A stretch of DNA of 64,000 nt from Asterias amurensis (taxonomy: Eukaryota > Echinodermata > Asteroidea > Forcipulatida > Asteriidae). The notes under the pieces were generated by a model. It did no database searches, was not told the DNA's origin, and was given only the letters and a program-made list of their open reading frames with translations. Of this stretch, positions 10,552-60,250 are shown piece by piece. The stretch spans positions 3,970,501 to 4,034,500 of the forward strand of contig NC_092661.1 of NCBI RefSeq assembly GCF_032118995.1, in the 5' to 3' direction. A program made the position numbers and the translations under genes. Every line of letters starts with the position of its first letter. The first letter of the stretch is position 1.

Positions 10552-10615
10552 TGTGAAGGAAAAAACCCTTGGCCCGAGAGTGTTGCGCTAGCGGTATTTA
10601 CTTATGTGGTAGAAA

Positions 10616-34735: not shown

Positions 34736-36211
34736 ATGTATCCATCAGTTGTTTTGGTTGTTCTTGTATTGTCTTATGGATGCGGAGCGTGTGACTTCAC
34801 GGGACATCCAGAGGATACCGTAGCCGAGGTAGGAGAGAATGCCACGCTGACATGTACCACTGACTTTACAAACTGTCAAGCAAGTAGGTGTGCAGTTCAT
34901 TGGGAGCGTGAAACAAACAACGGATATGAAGCACTTTCTGTATGTAATTATGTGTATCCTGAGTATCCGAACAGATATTTAGTGTCTTCTGGTCCTGACT
35001 GGTCTTTGACGATTACAGGAGTCCAGTCAAGTGATATGGGGCGATATCGATGTAGCATTTACTCATATGAAAGTCGAAGTTCACAACAGTCTCTCTCTGC
35101 AACCCTCATCATACCATCACTAATCGACATCATTGTTGAGCCGCCTCGTCCTCCAATAACAATGGGAGATATTGCTACATTTCACTGTAACGTTCAGTCA
35201 CAGCGTGGAGCTCTACCGACCCTCAACGTGAAATGGTTTGTGAATGGAACCAACATCAGAAGATTTCAATATCAATCATTTTATCATTTGGATAACGACG
35301 GATACACCGTAACATTTCTTAAGATAAGTGTTAACAACACCAACGTGTACTGTAAGGCATTCAGTGGTACTAAATACGTGAAACGCAGTGATAAATATCT
35401 GATACTCATTCATCCTCGGAAGAAACCGATAACATCCACTACTCAAATACCTGAGACTGAAAAGTCTCTCACCATCAACCCTACTGAGTTTTCTCCCGAC
35501 ACTGATGAGCCTTCCGCTACTCAAGTACCTGAGACTGAAGAGTCTCTCACCGTCAACCCTGCTGAGTTTTCTCCCGACACTGATGAGCCTTCCGCTACTC
35601 AAGTACCTGAGACTGAAGAGTCTCTCACCGTCAACCCTACTGAGTTTTCACCCGACACTGATGAGCCTTCCACTACTCAAATACCTGAGACTGAAAAGTC
35701 TCTCACCGTCAACCCTACTGAGTTTTCTCCCGACACTGATGAGTCTTCCGCTATTCAAGTACCTGAGACTGAAGAGTCTCAGCCCAACTCTGGCAGCACA
35801 ACTTCCCGCAACATGGTGCCTTCACACTCAACAATACCAACCAAAAGAAACATACCAAGTGTGACCGTAGAGGGAGCACATCAGTCCCCATCCATCGATC
35901 CTTCTACTAAGAATCCTGATCCTAAACTCCAAGACTCATCCTCGGTCGATAATTATACATTCATTGGCTTCATAGTAGGGTGGTCACTAGCGGCTGTCTC
36001 CACCTTGCTCTTCCTTGCATTGCTCCTGTACATTATCGTGTCCAAAAGAAGATCCAAAGCCAATCCTAATTCAACCCGTTTAGTTCAAACAGCTCCAGAT
36101 GAAGATGCAGAGGCGTATGAGGAAATGGAAACCCAACTACACGGGCAAGCTGCTTCTACTGGCCCTAAAGAAACCTCACCATCCAGCTACCAAGATCTGA
36201 TATTCAAGTAG
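34736..36211 (+). CDS. IgR1: two-Ig-domain membrane receptor with repeat stalk and short tyrosine tail
   Basis: Single exon, 491 residues. The start at MYPSVVLVVLVLSYGCGA is preferred over an in-frame ATG 66 bases upstream because it begins the signal peptide. Ig-like domain 1 spans about 20-130, with Cys40, Trp56 and DMGRYRC (Cys106). Domain 2 spans about 135-230 (ATFHC, VKWFVNG, NVYCKAF). The stalk (about 238-350) has four 26-residue repeats of PETEESLTVNPTEFSPDTD type and a partial fifth. The transmembrane segment is about 409-434, with no charged residue, and is followed by KRRSK. The tail has YEEM at Tyr461 (PI3K SH2-type YxxM) and SSYQDL at Tyr485 (ITIM-type SxYxxL); they are 24 residues apart, too far for a classical ITAM. 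A cell-surface recognition receptor is inferred. Its tail is shared with IgR4 only. Confidence 0.9.
   Translation: MYPSVVLVVLVLSYGCGACDFTGHPEDTVAEVGENATLTCTTDFTNCQASRCAVHWERETNNGYEALSVCNYVYPEYPNRYLVSSGPDWSLTITGVQSSDMGRYRCSIYSYESRSSQQSLSATLIIPSLIDIIVEPPRPPITMGDIATFHCNVQSQRGALPTLNVKWFVNGTNIRRFQYQSFYHLDNDGYTVTFLKISVNNTNVYCKAFSGTKYVKRSDKYLILIHPRKKPITSTTQIPETEKSLTINPTEFSPDTDEPSATQVPETEESLTVNPAEFSPDTDEPSATQVPETEESLTVNPTEFSPDTDEPSTTQIPETEKSLTVNPTEFSPDTDESSAIQVPETEESQPNSGSTTSRNMVPSHSTIPTKRNIPSVTVEGAHQSPSIDPSTKNPDPKLQDSSSVDNYTFIGFIVGWSLAAVSTLLFLALLLYIIVSKRRSKANPNSTRLVQTAPDEDAEAYEEMETQLHGQAASTGPKETSPSSYQDLIFK
35450..35790 (+). repeat. 78-bp coding tandem repeat in the IgR1 stalk
   Basis: CCTGAGACTGAA starts repeats near 35450, 35528, 35606, 35684 and 35762, exactly 78 bases (26 codons) apart. 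Copies are nearly identical, which suggests recent expansion and likely length polymorphism. Confidence 0.9.
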
Positions 36212-36219
36212 TCTATGGT

Positions 36220-36390
36220 CCTTGTAAAAACCAGGGCTTTAGCTTTGGATTCGGCTCAGGCTAGCTTGGCCCCGTGGTTGTTTGCGTATGCTTTGCGTAT
36301 ACGCGCCCACAGGGTTTCAAACGAGAAGACGGAGCCTGAAGCCGAAGCCGTGGTTTCGAAAAGGGGCCGTGTTCCTCAAACTAATGGACG
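36220..36390. repeat. Repeat element inserted just after the IgR1 stop codon
   Basis: From nine bases after the stop, the sequence is a repeat related to 8459-8640 (GAGCCTGAAGCCGAAGCCGTGGTTTCGAAA). It is missing at the same place downstream of IgR4, where AAGTAGTCTGTG leads straight into the shared 3' flank. A possible poly(A) signal AATAAA for IgR1 is at 36468-36473. Confidence 0.65.
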
Positions 36391-37100
36391 CCATCTGTTG
36401 CACTTGTGTAGCAATACACCGTTTAATGTTAAAGTTAGTTTTAAGGAATGCATATCTAATAAATCGTCAGCTTTAAACAGTAGTTTTTAAAAGAACATTT
36501 AACCGGAGAATGGCGCTGATATAACAATGTATAACCGGTGAGCTTCAATACTGAAACTGTTTTTTTTTCTTCTTTTTTTCTTTTTTTCTTCAATGATCAC
36601 CGCTCCTTCATTTTACATTAAACTCTTCTGATTAGTGATTCATGAATGAAACAATTTTCGGAGATCATAATGGATTCTGTAATCAAGAAAAAGCGATGAT
36701 TGTTGGAGATCTTTAAAATCGAAATCCCTCGAATGTTGCATGAAGAAATTATTGTTTAGAGAGGTTACTTTGCGTAAGAACTTTATGCTTTCGGTTGTTC
36801 TACAGTGACCAATCTTACATGAAAACATTTAACTGCAAAGTACCAAGTTCTTGTATAAATAATTAGTCTTTGTTCTCATGATTTACATTGTTATCAAACT
36901 CAGATAATAAGACATATTATGTCTAGCTACATATTATGTCTATTATTAGGCAATAGCTTGTCACGTGGATATGACGTCGACGAAACCTGCATGCATCGCT
37001 GAATATTTATTTAAGAAATCACCACATGTCAAGCATAAATTACTTATAAATGAATAACTTTAAATTGAGGTACACGTTTGGTACTTACTCAAAACAAATA
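36391..37100. other. IgR1 3' flank, shared with IgR4
   Basis: ATCGTCAGCTTTAAACA and GGCGCTGATATAA blocks match the region after IgR4 (54105-54165). No other gene is seen. Confidence 0.6.
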
Positions 37101-37491
37101 TTAAAGGAACACGTTGCCTTGGATCGGTCGAGTTGGTCTTTGAAAAGCGTTTGTAACCGTTTTTTTTAAAAATGCATATGGGTAGAAAGATGTTGTAAAA
37201 GTAGAATACAATGATCCACACAAACATGCCTCGAAATTGCGTGGTTTTCCTTTTACCTCGTCGACTAACACGTCGGCCATTTATGGGGGTCAAAATTTTG
37301 ACTCCCATAAATGGCCGACCATGTTAGTTCGCACAGTAGAAGGAAAACCACGCAATTTCGAGGCAAACTTATGTGGATCATTGTATTCTACTTTTAAAAC
37401 ATCTTTCCAACCATATGCATTTTATAAAAAACGGTTACAAACGCTTTTGTTTTGACCAACTCGTCCGATCCAAGGCAACGTGTTCCTTTAA
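37101..37491. repeat. Palindromic element, family 1, complete copy
   Basis: TTAA and AGGAACACGTTGCC on the left, GGCAACGTGTTCCT and TTAA on the right. It is a long near-perfect palindrome centred at about 37290 on GTCAAAATTTTGAC. This copy defines the family. Confidence 0.9.
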
Positions 37492-38391
37492 CTTAAACAC
37501 TTACTTGGCAATGAGCAATGTAGAGAGTTGATAGTATAAAACACATTGTGAGAAACGGCTCCCTCTGAAGAAGCACAGATTTTGAGAAAGAGGTAAATTC
37601 TCAATAAAATAATAAAATACTTCTAGCCAGAAGTCTTTTATTCCTTTCTGAAAGCACACAAATTCGTCCAACAAGGGTGTTTTTTCTGTCATCATTTTCT
37701 TGCAACTTCGATGACCAATTGAGGTTAAATTTTCACAGGCTTGTTATTGTATACTTTTGTTGGGATACACCAAGTAAGAAGACTGGTCTTTGACTGTTAC
37801 CAAAGGTGTCCAGTGCCTTGAAATAAAATATAGAAATTCATACGCCAAAATACTCACAGCCAGAATTTTAAATCAGAGAACATTCGGCCTAAAGGCACTT
37901 GACACATTTTGATAATTACGGTAACGAGAAATGGAGACATATTGTGAGAAACGGCTCTTTCTGAAGTAACGTAGTTTTTTTTTTTTTTTTTTATTTTTTT
38001 TTAAGACATTTCACACTACAGTATTTGAATCCGAGAAAAACTTCAGGTCTGAATTCTAAAGCATCTGATCAAAGGGTTTTTTTTGCATTATTTTCTTGCA
38101 ACTTCGGCGACCAATTATATATATGTTTTTTACAAACTGGTTAATTGCCGCATAGGTTGGGAAAATTCAAATGAGAAAACTAGTCTTTGACAATTCTCAA
38201 TAGTGTCCAGCCGTCGATTTCACCAAACTCTTCCTAACTTAGGATTAATCTTAGGACTTAGGACGAGTAAAGTTTCGTATTCAAATACGTAGGACGCATT
38301 GAACCCATCCTAAGTTAGGACGGGTTACGCATCCTAACTCGAGTTAGGATTCATCCTAGCGTTTCGTGAAATCGGCTGCAGTCCCTTTAAA
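37492..38391. repeat. Two family 2 elements, the second carrying a family 3 palindrome
   Basis: A 5'-truncated copy runs to about 37825 (GTGTCCAGTGCCTTGAAA). A second starts at about 37889 (AAAGGCACTTGACAC). Near its right end, after GTGTCCAG, a family 3 palindrome (CCTAACTTAGGATTAATC, GTTAGGATTCATCCTA) is inserted. The same nested composite is at 14746-15303. Confidence 0.75.
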
Positions 38392-39237
38392 ATGTTCTCA
38401 TCAGATATGAATCCACTCTGATAACCCACGGGTCCGAATAAACCATGATTTCGGGTCACGTGGGGTTTACCCATTTCGGGGTCAGTAAGACCCGGAATCA
38501 ATGTCTATTAAAAACCCGGAAAATTGTCAAAGAAAAGCAAAATCCAACTTAAAATCCATGGTTTTTACACCAGTTTTAGGGGTCCCCCTACACCCGGACT
38601 GGAATCCGGGTGAGTTCTGATGCCGTAGTTTTAGAGTGAAGTGAGGTTGTTATGACAGTAACTCACATTAGTTGTTGGTTTAATTGGATCTGGATTTTCA
38701 ACGTGTATTGCGTGCAATGTTAAACATAACACAGGCTTGCACAGTTTGAGCTAAATCAAAAGTAGAATTTTCTAAAACTCCTTTTATTTTTAAGAAAAAG
38801 TGTTAGTTTTTACAGGGTAAAAAGATAGGGAAATAAAATTGTTGATGTAAGTATTTTGACTCCTTAATGACTTTGACCTTAAAAACGTATAGTATACTAT
38901 CATGTTTTTAAGAAATGTTTTGAACGAGGAAACATAGTATGAGGAAATAAGGAAATTATAAAGAAAATGCAAGTTGAAGGATCTAGTGCAGTTATAACAA
39001 ACGTTCTAAACTGCCTCAGGGTAATGGTTTTAACAGACTTCATAACGAAATACAGGAACAAACGATCATTCAAAAATACTTCCTGCTTGTCGTAGCCAAC
39101 GAACCTTTTTTTATAACCAAATAAGGTCCGGAGGTCATTTCAACGTTAATATTGTGTGATTGTGATTGTCAGACATTTTTGATTAACGACTACATCGTGG
39201 TTTTAAAAGTGTATCAGAGTGTAACAGTAATATTGGA
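38392..39237. other. Continuation of the IgR1-type 3' flank, no gene
   Basis: About 39000-39100 (CTGCCTCAGGGTAATGG, ATACTTCCTGCTTGTCG) matches the flank after IgR4 at 54545-54650 and, inverted, 34255-34340. The rest is AT-rich with no domain. Confidence 0.5.
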
Positions 39238-39670
39238 AGTGTCAAGGCCGAACGGTTAAAGAGCACCGAATTCAAACTCTGGTGTTTCCGATCAGCAGAG
39301 TGTTGGTTCGAATCCCAAGCCGTGACACTTGTGTCCTTAAGCAAGACACCCAACCATTGCTTTATCCTTCGGATGGGACGTTAAGCCATTGGTCCCGTGT
39401 GTTGTTTAACGCACGTAAAAGAACCCAGTGCACTTAACTTATCGAAAAGAGGAGGGGTTCGCCCCGGTGTTCCTGGCTGGATTGGCGGCATATTGTGCCC
39501 AGCACCTTGTAAACCATTACATGATGTTATGTAAAAGGAGTAGATCTCACAATTCAAACTTAGTCCCATACCTTGCATACAATAATGATATGTTTCAGCG
39601 CTTTGAGACGCCCTTCGGGTGTATAAAGCGCTACTTAAATTTAAACTATTATTATTATTATTATTATTAT
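39238..39670 (+). mobile_element. tRNA-derived SINE, most complete copy
   Basis: A-box-like AAGGCCGAACGGTTAAAG and B-box GGTTCGAATCC sit in a tRNA-Leu-like head. The body has CTTAAGCAAGACACCCAACC, CCTTCGGATGGGACG, GTGCACTTAACTTATCG and TATAAAGCGCTACTTAAAT, closing in an (ATT)n tail at 39648-39670. Confidence 0.85.
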
Positions 39671-39702
39671 CATACACGTCTCTGTAAACCTCCTTGATTT
39701 AG

Positions 39703-40427: not shown

Positions 40428-42770
40428 ATGGATGGAAGGATGTCCATGTATGTTTTGTTGGTGTGTGTTTGGTGTTCACTTGATGCAGGCGGACTCCTGA
40501 TGGAGTCACTGCTCAACCAACAGTGTCTGCTAAGATCTTTACACCAGAGGCTGATCGTAAGGTGGGCGGGCAGGTCAGGGGCGTCAATCCGTCTTGAAAG
40601 GTGGTTGGGGGACATAAAATTTACGGCGTGGGGTCCGGGGCCCGCTTTAGGGCCCCTGGATTTTTTTAGCCCGTAGATGCTCTCTGGTGCAATCTAGTGA
40701 ATCTGAGGGGTGATGTTCCCCCTCTCAGATGTTGGAATTTAATGCCTATTTCAAGCTATGATGCACCTATTCTTGCTATCATGTTTATTATATCTAAAAA
40801 GCAACTCAATTATAGCTTCGTTATATCAATATTGTTTCAACATTCTAATGCTCAGACGGCGTTTCATCCCTACCATCACCAGACCGAAGACAAAAGTTTT
40901 ATGGGGCAAATCTGTCAGAATGGAACAGAATATCTATAAAATGTGAGCAGCAGTAGAACCTTTTGGGTTGACAGCATCTTCAAGTGCGGATATATGAACC
41001 AAGTTTTAGGGGGGAAATCTGTCGAAGAGTGAGCTGGCGAGTGCGAAACCTTTACGGCATGGGTCCGGGCCCGCTGAAGGGCCCGAGAAAATTTTGCATT
41101 CTAGATGCTCTGTGGTGCAATCTTAGGCCAATTAGAGGCATACAGAACGGAACAGAACATCTGTAAAATGTGAGCAGCAGTAGAACCTTTTGGGTTGACA
41201 GCATCTTCAAGTGCGGATCTATGAACCAAGTTTTAGAGGGAAAAACTATCGAAGAGTGAGCTCACGAGTGCGAAACCTTGACGGCATGGGTCCGGGCCCG
41301 CTTAAGGGTCCGGGCCCGCTTAAGGGCCCGAGAAAATTTTGCATTCTAGATGCTCTGTGGTGCAATCTTAGGCCAATAAGAGGCATACAGAACGAAACAG
41401 AACATCTGTAAATTGTGAGCAGCAGTAGAACCTTTTGGGTTGACAGCATCTTCAGGTGCGGATCTATGAACCAGATGCTCTGTGGTGCAATCTTGGGCCA
41501 ATAAGAGGCATACAGAACGAAACTGAACATCTGTAAAATGTGAGCAGCAGTAGAACATTTTGGGTTGACAGCATCTTCAGGTGCGGATCTATGAACCAAG
41601 TTTTAGGGGGAAATAGTGTCCAAGAGTGAGCACGTGAGTGTGAAACCTTTGCGGCATGGGTCCGGGCTCGCCCAAGGGCCCGGGAAAACTTTTTAATCTG
41701 TACATGCTCTGTGGTGCAATCTTTAGGCCATTTAGCGGCCAAATGGCGGCCAAATGGCGGCCAAATGGCAAACGAAACAGAACAATGAGCTGTGTGAATA
41801 TTGTGTTCCAGTGCTCCACAGTTCCACAGTGCAAAACACGATTTTCATGATAAAGGTGGTCAAATGACACGGGGAACATTTGATACTGTGTCTCCCACCC
41901 TTCGAAAATGGGGTAGGGTGGGGTGGGGTGGGGTACACTTCCCTTCCACTCTTTAAAGGGGAGCAAATCTGTCAACGATGAGCATGCGTGTGAGACGCCT
42001 TTACGGCTCGGGTGCGGGCCCGATTAAGGGCCCGGGAAAATTTTGCATTTTAGATGCTCTGTGATGCAATCTAGGGCAAATTTTGAGGGGGGGATATTGT
42101 GTCATTTTTGCCCACAGGATTAATGCCCATATAGGGACACATGGTTTTGTCTTACACAGTGCAAAACTTGGGCTTCATGATAAAGGTGGTCAAAAAGGTG
42201 GGGGGGGGGACATTTAATATTGTGTTCCCCACCCTCCAAAAGGTGGGGGGGGGACATGTCCCCCTGTCCCCCCCGGATTGACGCCCATAGGGCAGGTTGA
42301 TCTGAGGTGTACCGCTATGAACCTCGAGTCAGATTTCATTGTGGATTGGATGTCTACTAACCATGGTGTGACTCTGAGGTGGAATGACTCTACACTAACG
42401 CCCAACAGCCGGTTTATGTTCACTACAACCTATCCACACAGAGAGGGATGGTTGTTCAAGACATAACGATTACTGATCTGCAGATTGAGACTATGATGAA
42501 TATGTTTGTAGCGCCAAGTATCCCATATTGGGAGGAGGACACCTCGTTGAATCTACATCCAGCGTAATCCTGTCAGCTCCATCGTACCCAATATGCTCCC
42601 CTTCCGGACCTATCACAGTATACCCCGGCACAGAGCTACCCTTGAGATGTCTATCCGAGGCTGATAACCCTGCAAATATAGCAGCCCAGCTAATGACTGA
42701 TCCCAGTAGCTACCCCTGTGCCTGGACATCATCAAGTGTCAATGGTACGAACACATTATCAATAAATTTA
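40428..42770 (+). pseudogene. Broken two-Ig-domain gene, split by a transposon
   Basis: The first part (40428-40575) encodes a signal peptide MDGRMSMYVLLVCVWCSLDA and, after a frameshift near 40497, QPTVSAKIFTPEADRKVGGQ. A 1714-bp element then interrupts the codon run. Reading resumes at 42290 with DLRCTAMNLESDFIVDWMS, through TPNSRFMFTTTYPHREGW, frameshifts near 42455 and 42490, DYDEYVCSAKYPI (the Ig Y-C motif), then a second Ig-like unit with ELPLRCLSEAD and TNTLSINLTVEI. It runs into the IgR2-type 5' flank at about 42765. The domains are not close to IgR1-IgR5, so this is a different Ig gene. At least three frame lesions plus the insertion make it non-functional as read. Confidence 0.75.
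40576..42289. mobile_element. hAT-like non-autonomous element, 1.7 kb
   Basis: The element is flanked by an 8-bp direct repeat GGGCAGGT (40568-40575 and 42290-42297). Its ends are CAGGGGCGTCAATCCG and, inverted, TATGGGCGTCAATCCG. The 8-bp duplication and CAGGG-type end are hallmarks of the hAT superfamily. The interior has about four direct repeats of roughly 230 bases (about 40925-41680), each with GGGTCCGGGCCCGCT and GATGCTCTGTGGTGCAATCT, a G-rich run at 41908-41936 and no transposase frame. Confidence 0.85.
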
Positions 42771-43035
42771 ACGGTTGAAATAAAATTGTGGCATTGCTCA
42801 TAATCAGACAACGGCACTGTGTTGTTTTTCTGCATTCTTTCATCTTTTGTTTCTTCATCTTGTACGCTCAGTCATACGTCTCTGAATTTCGAAAACCATT
42901 ATTTACAACATTTCAGTTTTTAGGCGTGTTCCCTTTAAACCACAATGAAGGAAGTAATATCAAGAAAATTAAGTGACAAAATACAGACTATTGAGAGTGT
43001 AAACAGCTTTTTTTTTGACCAACGCTGTATTTTTC
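42771..43035. other. IgR unit 5' flank
   Basis: CATTGCTCATAATCAG, TACGCTCAGT and CCACAATGAAGGAAGTAAT blocks recur in order upstream of IgR3, IgR4 and IgR5. This marks the start of the duplicated receptor unit. Confidence 0.65.
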
Positions 43036-43199: not shown

Positions 43200-45044
43200 A
43201 TGTTTCTGCTCATTCTTGTTACGACTTGGATCGTTGGGTCACGTGGGGTGTTATATTTCAGCAGACACCCAGTTGACACCCTCGCATTGACAGGACAGAG
43301 TGTGACATTGAGTTGCACTATCGATAATGTACAATGCTCTGAAAGTGGGTCCTACTATAATTTCCACTGGGTGCGTAAGATGACGAGGGCAACAAATGAG
43401 ATCGAGTATGTGTCAAGCGGCACTACGGTGGGTTTAGACATAGCCGACAGTGAGAGGTACACAGTCTCTCAACAAGGCTGTAAGTGGACATTACGCATAC
43501 ACAACGCGAACCAGGGAGATAACGGATATTATGCATGCTATATCTACATTGTATATAACCAAGAACGTGATTTCTCCGATACGGCTAGACTGACTGTAGT
43601 TCAGTCTAGTGATCCGATAGACACTACTGTTATACCATCTCAGATTAGTGGATACGAAGTTGGTCAGGATGCAACTTTTCGTTGTGAATCTCGATCAATC
43701 ATTGAGTACGAACTGAGATACATTTGGTATATCAAACCACCGTACAATAATCAAGATGGCTCATGGCAATACGTATCGGGAAATGCAATTCGTGATAACA
43801 GTAAAACAATGACAATGCCTAGGTTGACAATGAGGGACAACGGCACTGAAGTGAAATGTATGGTGTTCAGCGGAGCCATGTCATTTACTGGTGAGACTAC
43901 CACTGGCTTGCTACTTGTTTATCAGCATGAAGCAACCACACGTGAGATGACGACATTTCAAATGACAGTGACCCCTTCCCATCCACCTACCAGCTACCCT
44001 GCAATCAGCAACACTGAACCCGTACCGAGAGATCGACCAGACCGACAGCCTACAACATCTGCACCCCAGACCCCATCCCCTCTACCGACCAAGAAGCAAA
44101 TTCCCGATCCTGACAGTAAGAACCCTTCTTCAGGATCTACGGACTCTACAGTCATCTTAGTAGGAGGAGCTGTTGGAGCTGGTTTCTTAGTTCTCCTCAT
44201 TGTAATCCTCCTGTACTTTCTTGTCTTCAGAGGACGATCTCAATCCAAGACTATTGATAGACGTCAATCTCACACACCTCAAGAAGATGGAGGAGAAAGT
44301 GATGCAGACGGGGTATCAGAAACCCAACTGCACGGAGACACTCCGAGGTGTGATCAAGAAAATGAGCACCCTAGCTCTGCAGACGAGAGGTCAGTTGAGT
44401 CCCCGAGAGATACCGTTGCTGTCACAGTAGTGACACCGGACTTACACCAGCAGGCAGAGACAAAACATGATCGAGACAATGTGGACTCTGAAACTGATGG
44501 ATTAGTCAAGGATAGGGAGAAGCCTAAAGACAAACAGATTCATCCTGAGTCCATGTATGCCGTATTGGATAAAAGTCGCGCCAAAAGTAAGACACTGGGC
44601 GCCATCTCCACTGAAAAACCGTCAAAACCTGATAAGGACAATGTGGACAAACCTCTGTCCACTGAAACTGGTGGATTAGTCAAAGATGGGAAGAACCGTA
44701 AAGGTAAGCAGATTCATCCTGAGTCCATGTATGCTGCGGTGGATAAAAGTTGCGCCAAAAGTAAGACATTGGGCGCCATTTCTTCTGAAACTCCTTCCGA
44801 GCGTCAGAAACCAACCGTCGCTGTGAAGGCTTTGCCGGTACCAGACCGCGTCGCGTCCGGTCAGAAACCCCCTCGCGTCATTCCGTACCATCTCTCCAAA
44901 CGCCGAGCAAGCACCATGACCCACCAAGCCCAGGCCGGGCTAGAGCAGACGGCAGACCGTGGTGAGGACGGTCTCGTCAAGGATGACCCAAGACAGAGGA
45001 ATGTGGAAGGTCTGATCTACGCTGACTTGAATCTATCGCGATGA
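43200..45044 (+). CDS. IgR2: two-Ig-domain receptor with ITIM-rich tail, truncated before the last motif
   Basis: Single exon, 614 residues. The signal peptide is MFLLILVTTWIVGSRG. Ig-like domain 1 covers about 17-130, with Cys39, FHWVRK, an extra Cys pair (NVQC, GCKWTL) and DNGYYAC (Cys113). Domain 2 is about 140-240 (ATFRC, YIWYIKP, EVKCMVF). The stalk is Pro/Ser/Thr-rich and the transmembrane segment about 318-344 (VGGAVGAGFLVLLIVILLYF). The tail carries ITIM-type SMYAVL (Tyr453), SMYAAV (Tyr511) and LIYADL (Tyr607), each closing a GLVKD-led module. ITIMs recruit SHP-type phosphatases in vertebrates, so inhibitory signalling is inferred. Compared with IgR3 and IgR5, a GGA codon is TGA at 45042-45044, so the final 20 residues, including an ITSM-type motif (TVYTDI by readthrough, to 45107), are lost. 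Confidence 0.9.
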   Translation: MFLLILVTTWIVGSRGVLYFSRHPVDTLALTGQSVTLSCTIDNVQCSESGSYYNFHWVRKMTRATNEIEYVSSGTTVGLDIADSERYTVSQQGCKWTLRIHNANQGDNGYYACYIYIVYNQERDFSDTARLTVVQSSDPIDTTVIPSQISGYEVGQDATFRCESRSIIEYELRYIWYIKPPYNNQDGSWQYVSGNAIRDNSKTMTMPRLTMRDNGTEVKCMVFSGAMSFTGETTTGLLLVYQHEATTREMTTFQMTVTPSHPPTSYPAISNTEPVPRDRPDRQPTTSAPQTPSPLPTKKQIPDPDSKNPSSGSTDSTVILVGGAVGAGFLVLLIVILLYFLVFRGRSQSKTIDRRQSHTPQEDGGESDADGVSETQLHGDTPRCDQENEHPSSADERSVESPRDTVAVTVVTPDLHQQAETKHDRDNVDSETDGLVKDREKPKDKQIHPESMYAVLDKSRAKSKTLGAISTEKPSKPDKDNVDKPLSTETGGLVKDGKNRKGKQIHPESMYAAVDKSCAKSKTLGAISSETPSERQKPTVAVKALPVPDRVASGQKPPRVIPYHLSKRRASTMTHQAQAGLEQTADRGEDGLVKDDPRQRNVEGLIYADLNLSR

Positions 45045-48009: not shown

Positions 48010-49911
48010 ATGTTTTTGCTCATTCTTGTTATGACTTTGATCTGGGGGTTGGGTGAGGCCACGTTTTTCCAGACTCACCCAGTTGACACCTTTGCCGTGA
48101 AAGGAAGTAATGTGACATTAAGCTGCACGGTCCAGAATGTATGGTGTCGTAGAAAGGACAAATATGTTATGCGTTGGAAACGTCAATTGGAAGATGAACC
48201 CTTTGCGGGGATATCTAGTTGGGATCAAGTGTACAGTGGTGTCGTTGGTAGAGAGAGGTACATGGTCACGTTAAGTGAGTGTACTTGGACTTTTCGTATT
48301 CGCAATTTCAAACAAACTGATGAAGGACATTACAGATGTTATGTATACAAAAATATCCATGGAGTAGAATCTGACGATTCTAAGGCAGCTAGACTAACTG
48401 TAGTTGATCCGATAAACACTACTGTCAGACCGTCTCAGATCGGTAGATACGAAGTGGGTCAGAATGCAACTTTTCGCTGCCAATTGCCATCAATCATTGA
48501 GTACGAACTGAGATACGTTTGGTATATCAAACCAGCGTACAATAACCAATATGGCTCATGGCAATACGTATACTCGGGAAGTCATCGAATTGCATTTCGT
48601 GAAAACCGTAAAACAATGACAATGCTGAGATTGACAATGAGAGACAACGGCACTGAAGTGAAATGTATGGTATTCAGAGGAGCCATGTCATTAACTGGAG
48701 AGACTACCAGTGGCTTGTTACTTGTTCAAGAAGTAACCACGGTTGAGATGACGACATTTCAAATGACAGTGACCACTTCCCATCCACCTACCAGCTACCC
48801 TGCAATCAGCAGCACAGAACCCGTACCGAGAGATCGACCAGACCGACAGCCTACAACATCTGCACCCCAGACTCCATCCCATATACCGACCAAGAAGCAA
48901 TATCCCGATCGAGACAGTAAGAACCCTTCTTCAGGATCTACGGACTCTACACTCATATTAGTAGGAGGAGCTATAGGAGCTGGTTTCTTAGTTCTCCTCA
49001 TTGTAATCCTTCTGTACTGTCTTGTCTTCAGAGGACGATCTCAATCCAAGACTATTGATAGACGTCAATCTCACACACCTCAAGATGATGGAGGAGAAAG
49101 TGATGCAGACGGGATATCGGAAACCCAACTGTACGGAGACACTCCGAGATGTGATCAAGAAAATGAGCACACTAGCTCCGCAGGCGAGAGGTCAGTTGAG
49201 TCCCCGAGAGATACCGTTGTTGTCACAGTAGTGACACCGGACTTACACCAGCAGGCAGAGACAAAACATGATCGAGACAATGTGGACTCTGAAACTGATG
49301 GATTAGTCAAGGATAGGGAGAAGCCTAAAGACAAACAGATTCATCCTGAGTCCATGTATGCCGTATTGGATAAAAGTCGCGCCAAAAGTAAGACACTGGG
49401 CGCCATCTCCACTGAAAAACCGTCAAAACCTGATAAGGACAATGTGGACAAACCTCTGTCCACTGAAACTGGTGGATTAGTCAAAGATGGGAAGAACCGT
49501 AAAGGTAAGCAGATTCATCCTGAGTCCATGTATGCCGCGGTGGATAAAAGTTGCGCCAAAAGTAAGACATTGGGCGCCATTTCCACTGAAACTCCTTCCG
49601 AGCGTCAGAAACCAACCGTCGCTGTGAAGGCTTTGCCGGTACCAGGACGCGTCGCGTCCGCCGGTCAGAAACCCCCTCGCGTCATTCCGTATCATCTCTC
49701 CAAACGCCGAGCCAGCACCATGACCCACCAAGCCCAGGCCGGGCCAGAGCAGACGGCAGACTGTGGTGAGGACGGTCTCGTCAAGGATGACCCAAGACAG
49801 AGGAATGTGGAAGGTCTGATCTACGCTGACTTGAATCTATCGCGAGGATCGGCAAGAATCAGCAACACGGAGGAGGAGACAGTTTATGCTGACATTGGAA
49901 ACAAGAATTAG
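48010..49911 (+). CDS. IgR3: two-Ig-domain receptor with full ITIM/ITSM tail
   Basis: Single exon, 633 residues, the most complete long-tail member. The signal peptide is MFLLILVMTLIWGLGEA. Domain 1 (about 18-132) has Cys39, MRWKRQ, the extra Cys pair (NVWC, SECTWTF) and DEGHYRC. Domain 2 has ATFRC, YVWYIKP and EVKCMVF. The stalk, transmembrane segment (GGAIGAGFLVLLIVILLYCL) and tail follow as in IgR2. Tail motifs are SMYAVL (Tyr450), SMYAAV (Tyr508), LIYADL (Tyr605) and ITSM-type TVYADI (Tyr626), eight residues before the end. Domain 1 is close to that of IgR4 but very different from IgR2 and IgR5, while the tail is almost identical to IgR2 and IgR5. An inhibitory cell-surface receptor is inferred from the motifs; ligand unknown. 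Confidence 0.92.
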   Translation: MFLLILVMTLIWGLGEATFFQTHPVDTFAVKGSNVTLSCTVQNVWCRRKDKYVMRWKRQLEDEPFAGISSWDQVYSGVVGRERYMVTLSECTWTFRIRNFKQTDEGHYRCYVYKNIHGVESDDSKAARLTVVDPINTTVRPSQIGRYEVGQNATFRCQLPSIIEYELRYVWYIKPAYNNQYGSWQYVYSGSHRIAFRENRKTMTMLRLTMRDNGTEVKCMVFRGAMSLTGETTSGLLLVQEVTTVEMTTFQMTVTTSHPPTSYPAISSTEPVPRDRPDRQPTTSAPQTPSHIPTKKQYPDRDSKNPSSGSTDSTLILVGGAIGAGFLVLLIVILLYCLVFRGRSQSKTIDRRQSHTPQDDGGESDADGISETQLYGDTPRCDQENEHTSSAGERSVESPRDTVVVTVVTPDLHQQAETKHDRDNVDSETDGLVKDREKPKDKQIHPESMYAVLDKSRAKSKTLGAISTEKPSKPDKDNVDKPLSTETGGLVKDGKNRKGKQIHPESMYAAVDKSCAKSKTLGAISTETPSERQKPTVAVKALPVPGRVASAGQKPPRVIPYHLSKRRASTMTHQAQAGPEQTADCGEDGLVKDDPRQRNVEGLIYADLNLSRGSARISNTEEETVYADIGNKN

Positions 49912-50950: not shown

Positions 50951-50958
50951 GCAGAAAT

Positions 50959-52838: not shown

Positions 52839-54026
52839 ATGTTTCTGCTCATTCTTGTTATGACGTCGATCTGGGAGTTGGGTCAGGCCACATTTTTCCA
52901 GACTCACCCAGTTGACACCATCGGCTTGAAAGGAAGTAATGTGACATTGAGCTGCACACTCCAGAATGTATGGTGTAGTAATAAGGGCAAATATGTTATG
53001 AATTGGACACGTCAATTGGAAGATGAACCCTTTGCGGTGATATCTAGTTGGGATCAAGTGTACAGTGGTGTCGTTGGTAGAGAGAGGTACATGGTCACGT
53101 CAAGTGAGTGCACTTGGACTTTTCGCATTCGCAATTTCAAACAAACTGATGAAGGATATTACAGATGTTATGTATACAAAAATATCCTTGAAGTAGAATC
53201 TGAAGATTCTAAGGCAGCTAGACTAACTGTAGTTGATCCGATAGACACTACTGTCAGACCGTCTCAGATCGGTAGATACGAAGTGGGTCAGAATGCAACT
53301 TTTCGCTGCCAATCGCGATCAATCATTGAGTACGAACTGAGATACGTTTGGTATATCAAACCAGCGTACAATAATCCTGGTGGCTCATGGCAATACGTAT
53401 CGGGAAATGCATTTCGTGATAACAGTAAAACAATGACAATGCCTAGGTTGACAATGAGGCACAACGGCACTGAAGTGAAATGTATGGTGTTCAGCGGAGC
53501 CATGTCATTAACTGGAGAGACTACCAGTGGCTTGCTACTTGTTCATCAGCATGAAGCAACCACACGTGAGATGACGACATTTCAAATGACAGTGACCCCT
53601 TCCCATCCACCTACCAGCTACCCTGCAATCAGCAGCACTGAACCCGTACCGAGAGATCGACCAGACCGACAGCCTACAACATCTGCACCCCAGACCCCAT
53701 CCCCTCTACCGACCAAGAAGCAAGATCCCGATCCTGACAGTACATGTAGAAACCCTTCTTCAGGATCTACGGACTCTACGGTAACCTTAGTAGGATGGTT
53801 TCTAGCTGCTGTCGCCATCTTGCTCCTCATCGCGTCACTCCTGTACAATATTGTGACCAAAAGAAGATCCAAAGCCAATCCTAATTCAACCCGTGTAGTT
53901 CAGACAGCTCCAGATGAAGATGCAAATACGTATGAGGAAATGGAAACCCAACTACACGGGGAAGCTGCTTCTACTGGCCATAAAGAAACCTCACCATCGA
54001 GCTACCAAGATCTGATATTCAAGTAG
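52839..54026 (+). CDS. IgR4: chimeric receptor, long-tail-class ectodomain on IgR1-type tail
   Basis: Single exon, 395 residues. The start MFLLILVMTSIWELGQA is chosen over an in-frame ATG at 52782 because it aligns with the other members; the upstream frame is open here only by a small change. Domain 1 (Cys39, MNWTRQ, NVWC, SECTWTF, DEGYYRC) is close to IgR3. From SGNAFRDNSKTMTMPRLTM through HQHEATTREMTTFQ it follows IgR2 instead. After GSTDSTVTLVG (about 53790) it switches to the IgR1 membrane segment and tail: KRRSKANPNSTR, YEEM at Tyr365 and SSYQDL at Tyr389. The repeat stalk of IgR1 is absent. The IgR1-type 3' flank follows. It lacks the GLVKD modules and SMYAxx motifs. It is probably a partner receptor with different signalling; the function is inferred. 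Confidence 0.9.
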   Translation: MFLLILVMTSIWELGQATFFQTHPVDTIGLKGSNVTLSCTLQNVWCSNKGKYVMNWTRQLEDEPFAVISSWDQVYSGVVGRERYMVTSSECTWTFRIRNFKQTDEGYYRCYVYKNILEVESEDSKAARLTVVDPIDTTVRPSQIGRYEVGQNATFRCQSRSIIEYELRYVWYIKPAYNNPGGSWQYVSGNAFRDNSKTMTMPRLTMRHNGTEVKCMVFSGAMSLTGETTSGLLLVHQHEATTREMTTFQMTVTPSHPPTSYPAISSTEPVPRDRPDRQPTTSAPQTPSPLPTKKQDPDPDSTCRNPSSGSTDSTVTLVGWFLAAVAILLLIASLLYNIVTKRRSKANPNSTRVVQTAPDEDANTYEEMETQLHGEAASTGHKETSPSSYQDLIFK

Positions 54027-55025
54027 TCTGTGTTCGTCAAATGAACGTTTTTGTTTGTACTTTTGTATGATTAAGTTTGATGGTTAGTTTAAAGGACATA
54101 ATAATCGTCAGCTTTAAACAACAGTTTAAAAAAAACATTTATCCGGGGAAGGGCGCTGATATAAAATTTATTTTATGACATTACTACTAGGACAAATTAC
54201 GTAAATAATCGGTGACAGCAATAAATAACTTTAAACGGACAATGAACTATTAAAATAAATTGAGAAGTTCATACGCCAAAATACTAACAGCCATAAGTTT
54301 AAATAAAAAAGCATTCAGTTTAAAGGCACGTGACTCATTTTGATAATGATGCTTGTATTTTTTGCAGATCTATTTGCAAATACACCCTGTCTTTTATGGA
54401 AAAACGGTATATTAATTACAGGAAGTATATTTATGAACAGAAAACTGTCGATGGAAATGTTTTGACTCTTTTTGGAAACAAATGCACTATGGAGAAAAGA
54501 AAACAGTAATTTATTGGATTAAGTGCAGTTAAAACAGTCAAATGAACTTCCTCCGGGCAAGGGTGTTTTACTGTTTACAATACTCTTAACAAAATAAAGG
54601 AACCAATGGTGAAACAAATACTTCCTGCTAGTCCCAACCAAAACACTTTTTTTTACCCCAAAAAAGGCAGGCAATAATGTTAATTTTGGTGCAAAAGAGG
54701 AAGAAAACAGAGAAATGTTTTTTTGTAATTGTGCCAAGAAAATAATAAATTGTACGCAGTCCGCATCGAGAAACGATGAGAAAACGATTTGTGTGGTTTT
54801 GGGGTGTTTTGTGACGTTTCTTGGTTTAGCTTATACAAACAAGAAAGTTTAGGAAAACAAAAACAAACCACAGACCATTGATGATGCCAAAAAGTCTTAA
54901 TCTCCTTTACCAAGTCTGCATTTTAAATGAAATCAGTTCCTTAAATGAGGTTTTATTAAGTTACTAATTTGATAACAACCGGGTTTTAAATTCACATTAA
55001 CCCTTAGTAAAAATGAAAGAAAGAC
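54027..55025. other. IgR4 3' flank of IgR1 type
   Basis: ATCGTCAGCTTTAAACA, GGCGCTGATATAA, CATACGCCAAAATACT and AATACTTCCTGCTAGTC follow the order of the IgR1 3' flank (36456-39100) without the SINE and palindromic insertions. The homology therefore extends at least 700 bases past the coding switch. No gene is seen. Confidence 0.7.
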
Positions 55026-55399: not shown

Positions 55400-55568
55400 A
55401 TGACGAATTGCTTTCAATATTATAATCTTTACTCTAAAGAACAAAGTAACGCATAAAATGAGTTACATCTGTTCAGTACTGCACAAAACTCCACTGTCGG
55501 GGCATCAATTGTGATATTTGACATCAAAGGTCTGAAATACCTATAGTTTCCAATGGCATTTCCCGGCC

Positions 55569-56783
55569 TTAAAGGCACCTGGACATATGATTTTTTTTTC
55601 TTTTAAACATAAGAGTATATGTTTATTAACAATAAAACAATTTTTTGAGTAATTGTTTGTCACGATTTATATGTTAAAAAAATTAATTAAGTGACTGGGG
55701 GGGTTGACTCCGCCTACCCCTTTTGTGACGTAGGAAAAGGAAGACTTTGCCTAGATCAAACATAGACCCCCCTCGATGCGTAGATAAACACACGTGCAAA
55801 AGTACATGTATTCTAAGACGTGAGTTTGTACGCTGCGAAAAAGGTTTTCTGGCATTTTTCCGGCAATGCCGACCAGGTGTATTGCTGCTGGATGCAGCAA
55901 AACAACTAAAGATGGGGTCAGTCTTCATCTGTTTCCTGCAGATCCCAAGTGTAGGCGGTTGTGGGCTGCGAAAGTCAGATTAACTAGAGCAAAGTGGTCC
56001 GGTCCGACGTCTTTTTCAGCACTGCAGCGAACACTTAGAGCCGTCGTGCTTCGAATCCTGGATACACAACTCATTTGACATGACGAGAAGAGCCATTCTT
56101 AAACACGACGCCGTCCCAACAATTTTTCTAGCTAGTGGGAAGTCGAAGAAGGTATCTGAAAGACGTGACGAACTCAGAGGAGCATTTGCTAAACGTGAAA
56201 AATTCGGGTAAGTTTGAACTTTGAGGGTATGTTTTTAGCTTTTGCCAAGTGACACGATTTTTTGTTGGTACCGCATGCGATTCACCGTGCGTGCAGGTCC
56301 TATGTGACCGTCCGCCCATTATACAGCAGCCATAGTGCGTGCGTGCAGTCTGCTCCGTGGCCGTATTTCTATAATAATACGTAGGCAGACCCACATCTTA
56401 CAACCCATTTGGTCACTAAAAAGTCGCATAGTTAAATGAAAATAGCAGCAATAGCTTTTGTAAAAACCACTAGGCGTTCAACATGTTCAAGTTTCAATGT
56501 ACGTATGTGTGTAAAATCGTGTCTAAATTTGTTTTGATGTGCCATGTTCCCAGACGTAATGTACGGGGGCCCAACTACAAATTTTCTCTCCAAATATCGC
56601 GCCTTGAAATACGTCACGAACAGCGCCCTCTCGGGTTGGGGCCTACTCGTAAATTTGTAAATACAATCAAAACTAAGATTTTTAAACCTTAGTTAATTTT
56701 TTATTCACATTCCTCTCATAAAAACACATATTTTAGTGACAAAAGCTTTATTAAAAAAAAATACCACTTCCAGGTGACTTTAA
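55569..56783 (+). mobile_element. TTAA-flanked element carrying a THAP exon
   Basis: TTAAAGGCACCTGGA at 55569-55583 and its near complement TCCAGGTGACTTTAA at 56769-56783 (14 of 15 match) bracket 1.2 kb that interrupts otherwise receptor-unit sequence. A THAP domain inside a short inverted-repeat element suggests a DNA transposon remnant, although no catalytic domain is visible. Alternatively the THAP exon belongs to a captured host gene. Confidence 0.55.
55866..56207 (+). pseudogene. THAP zinc-finger exon with a frameshift
   Basis: The frame from MPTRCIAAGCSKTTKDGVSL gives the first Cys pair (CIAAGC), FPADPKCRRLW and KWSGPTSFS. One base out of frame near 56019 it continues HCSEHLEPSCFE (the second zinc pair C-x2-H) and then LKHDAVPTIF, the AVPTIF box that ends THAP domains, before a GGTAAGT donor at 56208. 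All C2CH ligands are present, but no single frame contains them. THAP domains bind DNA in host factors and in P-element-type transposases. The lesion may be a mutation or a sequence error. Confidence 0.75.
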
Positions 56784-58173
56784 CAAACAACTTTTAGTTT
56801 GCAGTTTTAATCAGGACTGAAATTCACCATCTTTGCTAGCTGTTTTTTGTTGTTGTTACTATTCGTTTTCGTTTATTAAAGACACTGGACCATTTGGTAA
56901 TCACTCAAAGTAATTTGTATCATAAAAACTTACTTTCGATTTTCAGTCTATTTTGTTTGACAATTTTGCTTAGCATAAAACGTTTGCCTTGATAAGAACA
57001 AATTTCCTCGTGATTTTCAAGATAAGCAAACTATAGGTGAATGCCAGTAACAAGCAATATGCAACAAAATGGAAATTTGGTTGGTAATACCATGTAGGTA
57101 GAAGGTAATACTATTTTTATTAAGGAAGAAATTTCATGCTTAGCAAATTTGTGTGCTTAGCAGCTCTATGAAATTGGGCATTGGTTGCCAGGAGGCACTT
57201 CGAAGAATAATTGAGATCAGACGTTCGTCTTAAATTTACAGCAAATATTTTTGTGATGAGCCGGATTTCTCGGGACTGGGTACAGCTAAAAACATAATTT
57301 TAATACTCTATCGCATGAGATATGTTTTAAGTTCCTCACAAGTAATTGCATTCAGTCATATTATGTGATGTATGGGTGTACAAACAAAAACGGAAGTTTA
57401 AATTGACATAAAGTGGTACTATATAAAGAACAGCACTGACTCCACAGTACTAACTCTACATATTTTATATACGATTCAATCAATCGAATGGTTTTAAAAC
57501 AAAATCAAAGGCACACTTTGCTTTTAAAGAATGCATAGCAAATGCCCGGTATACGCGTATACATCATAAAGTTAATCTTCGAACTAAACAAAAATTGCCA
57601 TGTATCAAAAATTGTCTTCGTCATGTTTCCATGATTACAAAAATGTGTATAAACACATTATTTATTAACATAAATTCAGTGTTTTGGGCGTTTTTTTCAA
57701 TCCCAACGAGGAAGGAAGTTTAAAAAATAAGAAGACAAACCGCAGACCTTTTAGGATGCCAATAAATCTTAGCATCCTTTATTTAGTCTACACTTAGTTG
57801 AAATCAGTTCCTTAATTGATGCTTTTTAATCAATTCATAAATTGTAGTTTGACAACTAGGTTTAAACGTAACGCCTTATGAAACGATGGAAGAACAGTTT
57901 CTACCATTTTTACGGTAGAAATAAAAACTTGACATTCTCATAATCATCGACCGGCACTTTGTTATTTTTTCTGCAGTCTTTTATCTTTTTTTCTGCATCT
58001 TGTAGGTCTACGCTCAGTCTTGTGTCTCTGAATTTTGAAAATCGTTATTTACAACATTTCAGTTTTTAGGCGTGTTCTCTTTAAACCACAAGGAAGGAAG
58101 TAATTTTAAGAAAATGAAGGGGGAAGTACAGACTAGAGTGTAAACATTAGCTTTATTTACCAAAGCTTTTTTC
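56784..58173. other. IgR5 upstream flank
   Basis: A left fragment of a family 2 element (about 56876-56930) is followed at 56932 by receptor-unit flank (GATTTTCAGTCTATTTTGTT) that aligns with 51418-52670 and 46450-47840. No gene is seen. Confidence 0.6.
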
Positions 58174-58207
58174 TGACTTCATTTCCAGGTTTTAGGTTTT
58201 TATAAAG
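58174..58207 (+). promoter_or_regulatory. IgR5 proximal promoter with mutated CRE
   Basis: The position of TGACGTCA is TGACTTCA (58174-58181), while the TATA box TTATAAAG (about 58200-58207) is kept. Regulation by a CREB-like factor may differ from the other copies. Confidence 0.5.
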
Positions 58208-58342
58208 CTGGTTGTTTTCAACATTTCCAAGTTTAGTTGAAGTTGACGAGTGAGTCGTAAGGATCTCTGCGTGTTCATATCAATGTGAAGACTGTAGTTT
58301 GCTGTTATTTCATTGCTCATTCTACACGTATCAACAGTCACA

Positions 58343-60250
58343 ATGTTTCTGCTCATTCTTTTTTTGACTTCGATGTCTGGGTCATGTGGGATGTCGTATT
58401 TCAGGATTCACCCAGTTGACACCTTTGCCCTAACGGGACAAAGTGTGAGACTAACTTGCACAATCCAGAGTGGACATTGTACTGAAAGTGGGTTCTACTA
58501 TGATTTTCACTGGGTGCGTAGGATGACGACGACGACAACCCGCGCCGAGTACGTGTCCAGAGGCACTGTGGTGGAGCCTAACATCGCTGGCGGTGAGAGG
58601 TACACTGTCGCACAACAAGACTGCACGTGGACTTTAGAAATACACAATGCGTTCCTGAGCGACGGCAGACATTATTACTGTTATGTTTACGTTAAACACA
58701 ACAAAATAGGTAAACGCTCTAATATAGCGAAACTGACTGTAGTAGATCCGGTAGACACTACTGTCAAACCGTCTCAGATCGGTAGATACGAAGTGGGCCA
58801 GAACGCAACTTTTCGTTGCAAAACGCGACCAATCAGCATTGAGTACCGACTGAACTACGTTTGGTTCGTCAAACCAGCATACATTAATCAAGATGGCTCA
58901 TGGCAATACGTAACGGAAGATCATCGAATTGTATTGCGTGAAAACCGTCAAACAATGACAATGCTGAGATTGACAATGGGAGAAAACGGCACTGCAGTGA
59001 AATGTATGGTGTCCAGTGGAGCCATGTCATTTACTGGAAATACTACTAGTGGCTTGTTACTTGTTCACCAGGACGAAGTAACCACAGGTGAGTTGTTGAC
59101 ATCTCAAATGACAGTGACCACTTCCCATCCACCTACCGGATACCCTGCAATCAGCAACACTGAACCCGTACAGAGACATCGACCAGACCGACAGTCTACC
59201 CCATCTGCAACCCAGACCCCATCCCCACTACCGACCAAGAAGCCAGATCCCGATCCTGACAGTAAGAACCCTTCTTCAGGATCTACGGACTCTACAGTCA
59301 TCTTAGTAGGAGGAGCTGTAGGAGCTGGTTTCTTAGCTCTCCTCATTGTAATCCTCCTGTACTTTATTGTCTTCAGAGGACGATCTCAATCCAAGACTAT
59401 CGATAGACGTCAATCTCACACAACTCAAGATGATGGAGGAGAAAGTGATGCAGACGGGATATCAGAAACCCAACTGCACGGCGACACTCCGAGATGTGAT
59501 CAAGAAAATGAGCACACTAGCTCTGCAGACGAGAGGTCAGTTGAGTCCCCGAGAGAAACAGTTACTGTGGTAGTGACACCGGACTTACACCAGCAGGCAG
59601 AGACAAAACATGATCGAGACAATGTGGACTCTGAAACTGATGGATTAGTCAAGGATAGGGAGAAGCCTAAAGACAAACAGATTCATCCTGAGTCCATGTA
59701 TGCCGTTTTGGATAAAAGTCGCGCCAAAAGTAAGACACTGGGCGCCATCTCCACTGAAAAACCGTCAAAACCTGATAAGGACAATGTGGACAAACCTCTG
59801 TCCACTGAAACTGGTGGATTAGTCAAAGATGGGAAGAACCGTAAAGGTAAGCAGATTTATCCTGAGTTCATGTATGCCGCGGTGGATAAAAGTTGCGCCA
59901 AAAGTAAGACATTGGGCGCCATTTCCACTGAAACTCCTTCCGAGCGTCAGAAACCAACCGTCGCTGTGAAGGCTTTGCCGGTACCAGGACGCGTCGCGTC
60001 CGCTCAGAAACCCCCTCGCGTCATTCCGTACCATCTCTCCAAACGCCGAGCAAGCACCATGACCCACCAAGCCCAGGCCGGGCCAGAGCAGACGGCAGAC
60101 CGTGGTGAGGACGGTCTCGTCAAGGATGACCCAAGACAGAGGAATGTGGAAGGTCTGATCTACGCTGACTTGAATCTATCGCGAGGATCGGCAAGAATCA
60201 TCAACACGGAGGAGGAGACGGTTTATGCTGACATTGGAAACAAGAGTTAG
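58343..60250 (+). CDS. IgR5: two-Ig-domain receptor with ITIM/ITSM tail
   Basis: Single exon, 635 residues. The start MFLLILFLTSMSGSCG aligns with the other members; an in-frame ATG 30 bases upstream is less likely. Domain 1 has Cys39, FHWVRR (as in IgR2), the extra Cys pair (SGHC, QDCTWTL) and RHYYCYVY, in which the usual Gly of DxGxYxC is replaced. Domain 2 has ATFRC, YVWFVKP and AVKCMVS. The transmembrane segment is VGGAVGAGFLALLIVILLYF. Tail motifs are SMYAVL (Tyr453), FMYAAV (Tyr511, Ser at -2 replaced by Phe, a weaker ITIM), LIYADL (Tyr607) and TVYADI (Tyr628). The tail is otherwise nearly identical to IgR3. It is probably inhibitory; ligand unknown. Confidence 0.92.
   Translation: MFLLILFLTSMSGSCGMSYFRIHPVDTFALTGQSVRLTCTIQSGHCTESGFYYDFHWVRRMTTTTTRAEYVSRGTVVEPNIAGGERYTVAQQDCTWTLEIHNAFLSDGRHYYCYVYVKHNKIGKRSNIAKLTVVDPVDTTVKPSQIGRYEVGQNATFRCKTRPISIEYRLNYVWFVKPAYINQDGSWQYVTEDHRIVLRENRQTMTMLRLTMGENGTAVKCMVSSGAMSFTGNTTSGLLLVHQDEVTTGELLTSQMTVTTSHPPTGYPAISNTEPVQRHRPDRQSTPSATQTPSPLPTKKPDPDPDSKNPSSGSTDSTVILVGGAVGAGFLALLIVILLYFIVFRGRSQSKTIDRRQSHTTQDDGGESDADGISETQLHGDTPRCDQENEHTSSADERSVESPRETVTVVVTPDLHQQAETKHDRDNVDSETDGLVKDREKPKDKQIHPESMYAVLDKSRAKSKTLGAISTEKPSKPDKDNVDKPLSTETGGLVKDGKNRKGKQIYPEFMYAAVDKSCAKSKTLGAISTETPSERQKPTVAVKALPVPGRVASAQKPPRVIPYHLSKRRASTMTHQAQAGPEQTADRGEDGLVKDDPRQRNVEGLIYADLNLSRGSARIINTEEETVYADIGNKS

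Follow-up and report, generated by a model that had tools for sequence, protein, structure and literature searches.

Do invertebrates possess inhibitory recognition receptors of the kind best known from vertebrates, and how would the genes for such receptors be built? The question is raised by a 64,000-nucleotide stretch of an echinoderm genome (C14:3970501-4034500, here called the window; C14 is a 20-Mb contig of a 491.5-Mb genome in 23 contigs), in which an earlier note had picked out a cluster of immunoglobulin (Ig)-type membrane receptors carrying immunoreceptor tyrosine-based inhibitory and switch motifs (ITIMs and ITSMs). We find that this cluster belongs to a family of about 60 loci, and that ectodomains and two alternative cytoplasmic tails, which we call A and B, have been repeatedly recombined between genes of this genome. 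Judging from sequence, we think it probable that these genes encode paired recognition receptors, members of a large, fast-evolving, intron-free echinoderm Ig family in which tail A would be inhibitory, through an SHP-type phosphatase, and tail B perhaps coupled to phosphoinositide 3-kinase (PI3K).

From the start codon of the first gene (34736) to the stop codon of the last (60250), the window holds five unbroken plus-strand frames (G1-G5) of 395-635 residues, with coding parts free of introns. Each encodes, in order, a hydrophobic leader, a V-set Ig domain, a second Ig-like region, a stalk rich in serine, threonine, and proline, a single transmembrane (TM) segment, and a tail. G1 (34736..36211) has a type-1 ectodomain, a stalk lengthened by a 78-bp tandem repeat (4.4 copies, 35435-35780), and tail B. 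Type-2 ectodomains are joined to tail A in G2 (43200..45044; tail shortened by a nonsense codon ahead of the ITSM), G3 (48010..49911; full tail), and G5 (58343..60250; one degenerate ITIM). G4 (52839..54026) is a mosaic, with a type-2 ectodomain near that of G3 and tail B. None of the five TM segments contains a charged residue, and a DAP12-type partner is therefore not suggested for these genes. The first domain is assigned to V-set or Ig by Pfam in all five proteins, with V-set the best score in G2-G5, and its model (predicted local distance difference test [pLDDT] about 77-93) fits antibody V domains at 1.6-2.1 Å over 104-110 residues in five of the matches listed. Pfam finds two Ig stretches in G1; the second domain of G2-G5 falls under every Pfam cut-off (G5 'ig' at residues 150-223, E 0.018), and its assignment comes from invariant Cys/Trp columns together with a model of low confidence (pLDDT about 50-63). 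Thus, of the proposal that five neighboring type I genes encode two Ig domains each, the frames, topology, and first domain hold firmly and the second domain less so. In the fold search, two-domain alignments among the matches listed have a root-mean-square deviation above 10 Å, a listing that does not rule out families missing from it.

The long tails bear the motifs that first drew attention to the locus. Applying published consensus sequences, S/I/V/LxYxxI/V/L for the ITIM and TxYxxV/I for the ITSM (PMC8631942), we located on the plus strand SMYAVL in G2 (44550..44567), G3 (49351..49368), and G5 (59693..59710); SMYAAV in G2 (44724..44741) and G3 (49525..49542), its place in G5 taken by FMYAAV (59867..59884), which departs from the ITIM consensus at position -2; LIYADL in G2 (45012..45029), G3 (49816..49833), and G5 (60155..60172); and the ITSM TVYADI near the C-terminus of G3 (49879..49896) and G5 (60218..60235). 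The tails of G3 and G5 thus finish in an ITIM-ITSM pair, with the two tyrosines of G3 lying 21 residues apart. With motifs in the cytoplasmic tail of a predicted membrane protein, these genes can, by motif, be called ITIM/ITSM-bearing receptors. The earlier note had described three such tails, with up to three ITIM-type motifs and, in two of them, an ITSM, and all of this is borne out. ITIM-like motifs, the ITSM included, number 3, 4, and 3 in G2, G3, and G5 against 0.19-0.30 expected from shuffled tails (p 0.00025, 0.00025, and 0.002). G2 owes its early stop to a GGA-to-TGA difference from G3 and G5, which may be an allele or a sequencing error; the frame past the stop is open and would give TVYTDI. 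Read by eye, tail A contains an internal duplication, the SMYAVL segment recurring around SMYAAV. A PDB sequence search with the tail gave no significant match (best E 0.94).

G1 and G4 are not tail-less. Each ends in a distinct, short tail, some 48 residues long, whose two tyrosines lie in YEEM (36116..36127 in G1, 53931..53942 in G4) and in SSYQDL (36182..36199 and 53997..54014, all plus strand). The first of these is a YxxM motif, which is commonly read as a docking site for PI3K. The start of tail B aligns weakly with that of tail A, the two having an ETQLHG stretch in common. Five genes with three motif-bearing tails is therefore correct as far as it goes, and incomplete in missing both tail B and the wider family.

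Exchange between genes is visible within the window itself. The TM and tail-B stretch of G1 (35973..36220) is 89.9% identical over 248 bp to that of G4 (53788..54035), and this similarity reaches from the TM segment to 9 bp beyond the stop codon; upstream of the TM segment the same two genes have 44% nucleotide identity and a synonymous divergence (dS) of 2.57 over 303 codons. The Ig1 domain of G4 is 87% identical to that of G3. G4 has MaxChi breaks at about residue 320, where it turns from G3-like to G1-like, and at about 179, where it turns from G3-like to G2-like, and G2 has one at about 128, each at p 0.0005; across the six tests performed, with 2000 shuffles each, uncorrected p values were 0.0005 in five and 0.001 in one. 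The switch between tails in G4, the sole gene mapped against a tail-B donor type, sits at the TM segment, within a continuous frame. Among G2, G3, and G5, dS falls from 0.68-1.44 in Ig1 to 0.14-0.32 in Ig2 and 0.045-0.056 in the tail. Over the final 100 bp upstream of the start codon, identity is 89-95% in each of the six pairwise comparisons among G2-G5; over the leader and Ig1 (four 100-bp windows) pairs of these genes are 51-79% identical, apart from G3-G4 at 89-97%. These profiles suggest that Ig1 is an old, diverse segment flanked by younger or homogenized sequence.

We then asked how far this arrangement extends through the genome. Almost all of the matches to G3 (101) and to G1 (97) fall on C14, and the stretches fetched from the G3 matches yielded 92 matching frames at 60 loci, 56 on C14, 2 on C17, and 2 on C18. 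This is a low count, since merging within 900 bp joins a few neighbors and some G1 matches lie outside the sample. Fifty-two of the 92 frames were picked by hand and 42 passed scripted rules for start, length, and TM segment; 42 of the 60 loci have an intact leader-Ig-TM-tail frame and 18 are broken or partial. One further intact gene (L037) raises the intact total to 43 and stands outside all counts given here. Each of the two main ectodomain types is found on either tail: among the 42, type 2 is joined to tail A in 12 genes and tail B in 19, and type 1 with tail A in 5 and tail B in 3. A third ectodomain type is represented by one tail-A gene, and the two C18 members carry tail A and another tail, respectively. 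A 799-residue member with the third ectodomain type (L013 3371-5767; C14 frame 586362-588770) ends in a tail A whose four motifs are two copies of SMYAVV, one LIYADL, and one TVYTDI.

Ectodomain and tail are unlinked in this sample. On a quick tree of the 31 type-2 ectodomains, in which one long branch was flagged (C14:545457), the tail label changes 10 times, compared with a mean of 9.8 for shuffled labels; the starred branches force at least 7 changes, and a single tail-A clade is rejected by the approximately unbiased test (p-AU 1.3e-44). The nearest ectodomain bears the other tail in 14 of these 31 genes (15.2 when shuffled), and for 10 of the 12 tail-A genes it belongs to a tail-B gene, at 75-87% identity. 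The type-1 tree, with 2 tail changes compared with 2.6 when shuffled, comprises 8 genes, too few to tell. Similar ectodomains are thus carried on differing tails by clustered genes, the arrangement that characterizes paired receptors. Beyond this genome, three protein searches identified eight public relatives (P0001-P0008) that are members of the family, on contigs of 0.9-2.9 kb; each search scored the roughly 8000 candidates with most words in common, a depth that does not imply absence from annotated proteomes. The other three matches of one of these searches were a barnacle irregular-chiasm-type protein, an unnamed protein, and a neuronal-adhesion-type protein. Scans of viral and genome contigs, as well as a repeat-word search, returned no relative.

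Across the family, the spacing of the C-terminal motifs is nearly fixed. Their tyrosines are 20-22 residues apart in 18 of the 19 intact tail-A genes (15 at 21, two at 20, and one at 22), and they lie 5-7 residues from the C-terminus in 17 of them and 21 residues from it in the tail-A gene on C18, where tail identity to G3 is 43%. In 17 of these 18 genes the residue after each tyrosine of the pair (position pY+1) is alanine, the remaining gene having TVYTDI. Tail B retains both tyrosines in 21 of 21 genes, with YxxM in 19 (YEEL in the other two) and SSYQ[DEA]L in all. Both tail-B motifs also persist in two of the public relatives, P0007 and P0008 (with SSYQEL and SSYQKL); the frames of our sample that match these proteins best do so at 60% and 64% identity. 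P0001 has YEEL, then diverges and lacks the SSYQ motif; the sequences of P0002 and P0003 stop short of the motif positions. Two distant single-exon relatives on C14, at 5575487-5577265 (L039/L040) and, on the minus strand, 14855509-14857566 (L038/L041), were detected through their Ig parts (E 7.5e-5 and 3.0e-5) and end in tandem motifs of their own, LVYADL-SEYAEL 25 residues apart and VTYAEL-VDYADI 24 apart; Pfam assigns three Ig stretches to one of them (D1). They hint that intron-free receptors with ITIMs make up a broader class.

The predicted outer part of these receptors carries a variable V-type Ig domain. Positions in a group of loops have an entropy of 1.94 bits, compared with 1.26 in strands taken from the model (p 5.6e-5). 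The loop groups were picked after the entropy profile was known, and the EF loop (1.88 bits), which was not part of the group and does not lie on the customary binding side, varies as much as BC; variability is therefore shown for loops generally and not for the binding side specifically. Mean ratios of nonsynonymous to synonymous rates (omega; ranges are values printed during optimization) were 0.71 for Ig1 and 0.60-0.61 for Ig2 in type-2 genes, 0.96-0.97 and 0.92-0.96 in type-1 genes, and above 1 in the stalk (1.22-1.25) and TM segment (1.04-1.18). Given the Ig1 values, the diversity of the V domain is shown, and positive selection on it is not.

How would such receptors work? In the mechanism we favor, binding of a ligand to a tail-A receptor would lead Src-type kinases to phosphorylate the C-terminal ITIM-ITSM pair, a tandem-SH2 SHP-type phosphatase would dock on both phosphotyrosines, and the cell, which we presume to be a coelomocyte, would be activated less strongly, with the membrane-proximal ITIMs supplying extra docking sites. 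Tail B, which has YxxM and SSYQ[DEA]L in place of the pair, would, more tentatively, attach a similar ectodomain to a different, perhaps PI3K-type, signal. Exchange of ectodomains between tails would let receptors of both kinds, inhibitory and non-inhibitory, keep pace with a shared set of changing ligands. A medium-sized nonpolar residue at pY+1, alanine included, is reported to favor SHP1 binding (PMC8631942), and we count the alanines of the tail-A pair in favor of SHP-type docking. The phosphatase itself is postulated, and 49 SH2 matches were seen in the genome.

Several observations weigh against this interpretation. The ITSM is missing from one of the 19 tail-A genes (G2) and reads TVYTDI in another and TLYAGI in a third; YEEL stands in place of YxxM in 2 of the 21 tail-B genes and in P0001, and a 22nd tail-B gene, excluded from the 21, has lost its SSYQ motif to a frame change. 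Against a milder yardstick than shuffling, namely every frame of 60 aa or more in a six-frame reading of the window (G1-G5 among them), ITIM-like motifs occur at 0.38 per 100 aa, or about one expected per long tail, and the single such motif in the tails of G1 and G4 is not significant (p 0.06, shuffles). The Ig domains have a mean omega below 1, that of the tails is not low (0.69-0.73 for A, 0.63-0.65 for B), and no significant extra constraint is seen on motif codons relative to the other tail codons (p 0.096 and 0.24); homogenization may therefore explain part of the tyrosine invariance. The divergence of P0001 in tail B lowered our confidence in the mechanism very slightly. On the matter of selection on the motifs, the spacing seen in the distant relatives is the stronger argument.

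The closest known parallels are vertebrate paired receptors such as Siglec-11/16, CEACAM1/3, CD300A/C, SIRP, and KIR (PMC5701461, PMC12447643), whose ectodomains are reported to be kept matched by gene conversion (PMC5112662). Our genes differ in their echinoderm host, their intron-free coding part, and the G4 switch in a continuous frame at the TM segment; moreover, the five window genes have no charged TM residue for an activating adaptor, and the second tail carries its own tyrosines. The likeness to SIRP, Siglec, and LILR receptors claimed earlier is, as far as tested, one of motifs; PDB sequence searches matched antibody V domains, titin, contactins, CD80/CD86, and Robo1. SIRP proteins have a V-set plus two C1-set domains, and Siglecs a sialic-acid-binding V-set with an essential arginine; the five window proteins have only two Ig regions ahead of the stalk, with no C1-set match above the cut-off (G1 15.2 bits vs 21), and the SIRP domain set was rejected for them. 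No LILR appeared among the PDB matches listed, a listing that excludes no family; by Pfam, V-set scores best for domain 1 of G2-G5. In PD-1 and BTLA an ITIM is likewise followed by an ITSM, and PD-1 has similar tyrosine spacing (Y223 and Y248; PMC7078208); the motif pair is all that is in common, with glycine at pY+1 of the PD-1 ITIM and alanine here, as in BTLA (PMC8631942). By description, lamprey NICIP, a single protein of a jawless vertebrate, also combines two Ig-like domains with an ITIM (PMC5071834), and Hydractinia Alr genes are invertebrate Ig recognition genes with ITIM or activation-type (ITAM) motifs (cited in PMC12065747). Botryllus FcoRs form a large invertebrate family of type I proteins as well, with 53 loci, a V-set N-terminus in a V-sushi-C2-C2 layout, and ITIM or hemITAM tails, the motif of which can vary by allele or splicing (PMC12065747). 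Here, in contrast, genes are single-exon and the tail varies from gene to gene, and sushi matches were found neither in the five window proteins (E up to 1) nor in two further members and D1 (E up to 0.01). By analogy, the family may function like vertebrate paired receptors and FcoRs, a resemblance in working that does not establish membership of a named family. The suggestion that the recognition system was undescribed agrees with the openly licensed papers searched, in which we found neither this family nor an echinoderm report of the kind.

A bolder version of the paired-receptor proposal, which we regard as speculative, is that of an independently evolved, natural killer-like echinoderm system, in which V-type ectodomain cassettes and two tail cassettes are freely recombined within intron-free genes, giving braking and non-braking versions and new pairings in the germ line or even somatically. 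Among the rival explanations, one with a small share of our belief is allorecognition or self-recognition, perhaps through homophilic binding, on the model of Hydractinia Alr and Botryllus FcoR/fester, in place of detection of pathogens or altered self. A large clustered Ig family with ITIMs and a variable V domain is shared with FcoR, as is family size (60 loci, 42 intact, here; 53 there; PMC12065747), and the absence of the sushi domain from the eight proteins scanned speaks against it. Furthermore, we know of no colony fusion in solitary echinoderms. We give about the same low weight to tail B being a tail-A receptor minus its signaling part, a non-signaling decoy: tail B is short, begins with a weak alignment to tail A, and has a motif count not above chance, and P0001 retains one of two tyrosine motifs in altered form; opposing this are the two tyrosines kept in every one of the 21 genes as well as in P0007 and P0008. 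Somewhat less credible still is a role as adhesion, neuronal, or gamete-surface proteins, whose YxxL/YxxM motifs would serve endocytosis or generic SH2 adaptors, with any immune role incidental. The two-Ig layout is common to adhesion proteins, and contactins, Dpr-interacting proteins, and Rst are among the weak PDB matches; however, near-fixed ITIM-ITSM spacing, tail swapping, family size, and broken copies would be unusual for developmental adhesion genes. Finally, that the family is retroposed, largely non-functional, and maintained by tandem duplication, to which the missing introns, the 18 broken or partial loci, and stalk and TM omega near or above 1 might point, is very improbable given 42 intact frames, V domains of G2, G3, and G5 that stay open despite dS of 0.68-1.44, and an omega that stays under 1 in the tails and in the Ig domains of type-2 genes.

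The surroundings of the cluster contain further features. On the minus strand, 33883-33990 is a fragment that matches, in reverse orientation, the leader and Ig1 start of G1 (73% identity over 37 residues). Upstream of G2, 42218-42803 (plus) looks Ig-like by eye, has no Pfam match, and is perhaps a broken gene from another Ig family. A THAP-domain frame, possibly transposon-derived, lies at 55824-56078 (plus). Beside the cluster are repeated exon-like frames of PAN or F5/8 type C (discoidin) type, maybe another recognition family: 5063-6087 (minus) and 10613-10975, 13290-13703, and 24256-24774 (plus) by Pfam, in a scan of five of the six frames, with 15533-15994 and 17153-17578 (plus) placed by resemblance. 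No tRNA and no Rfam match was found in the window. The invertebrate source supposed in the earlier note is upheld by contig C23 (16,427 bp), which encodes ND1 and ND2 and is read best, of the codes tried, with mitochondrial code 9 (echinoderm/flatworm): 356.1 vs 353.0 bits with code 5 for ND1 and 118.1 vs 114.9 for ND2, in a comparison in which code 9 ties with code 14 for ND1 and codes 2, 4, and 11 were left out. Two ND1 sites, N59 and N251, read Asn from AAA under code 9, and we take these to be conserved Asn sites. Together with the 22 other contigs, this mitochondrial evidence suggests an echinoderm.

If the paired-receptor interpretation is true, echinoderms too make extensive use of ITIM/ITSM inhibition and paired receptors, both best known in vertebrates, and these arose there in genes of an unusual format. 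With a continuous coding frame, exchange takes place without exon boundaries, and paired-receptor evolution would be directly readable in the DNA. The family also supplies concrete peptides and genes for asking whether inhibitory phosphatase logic predates vertebrates.

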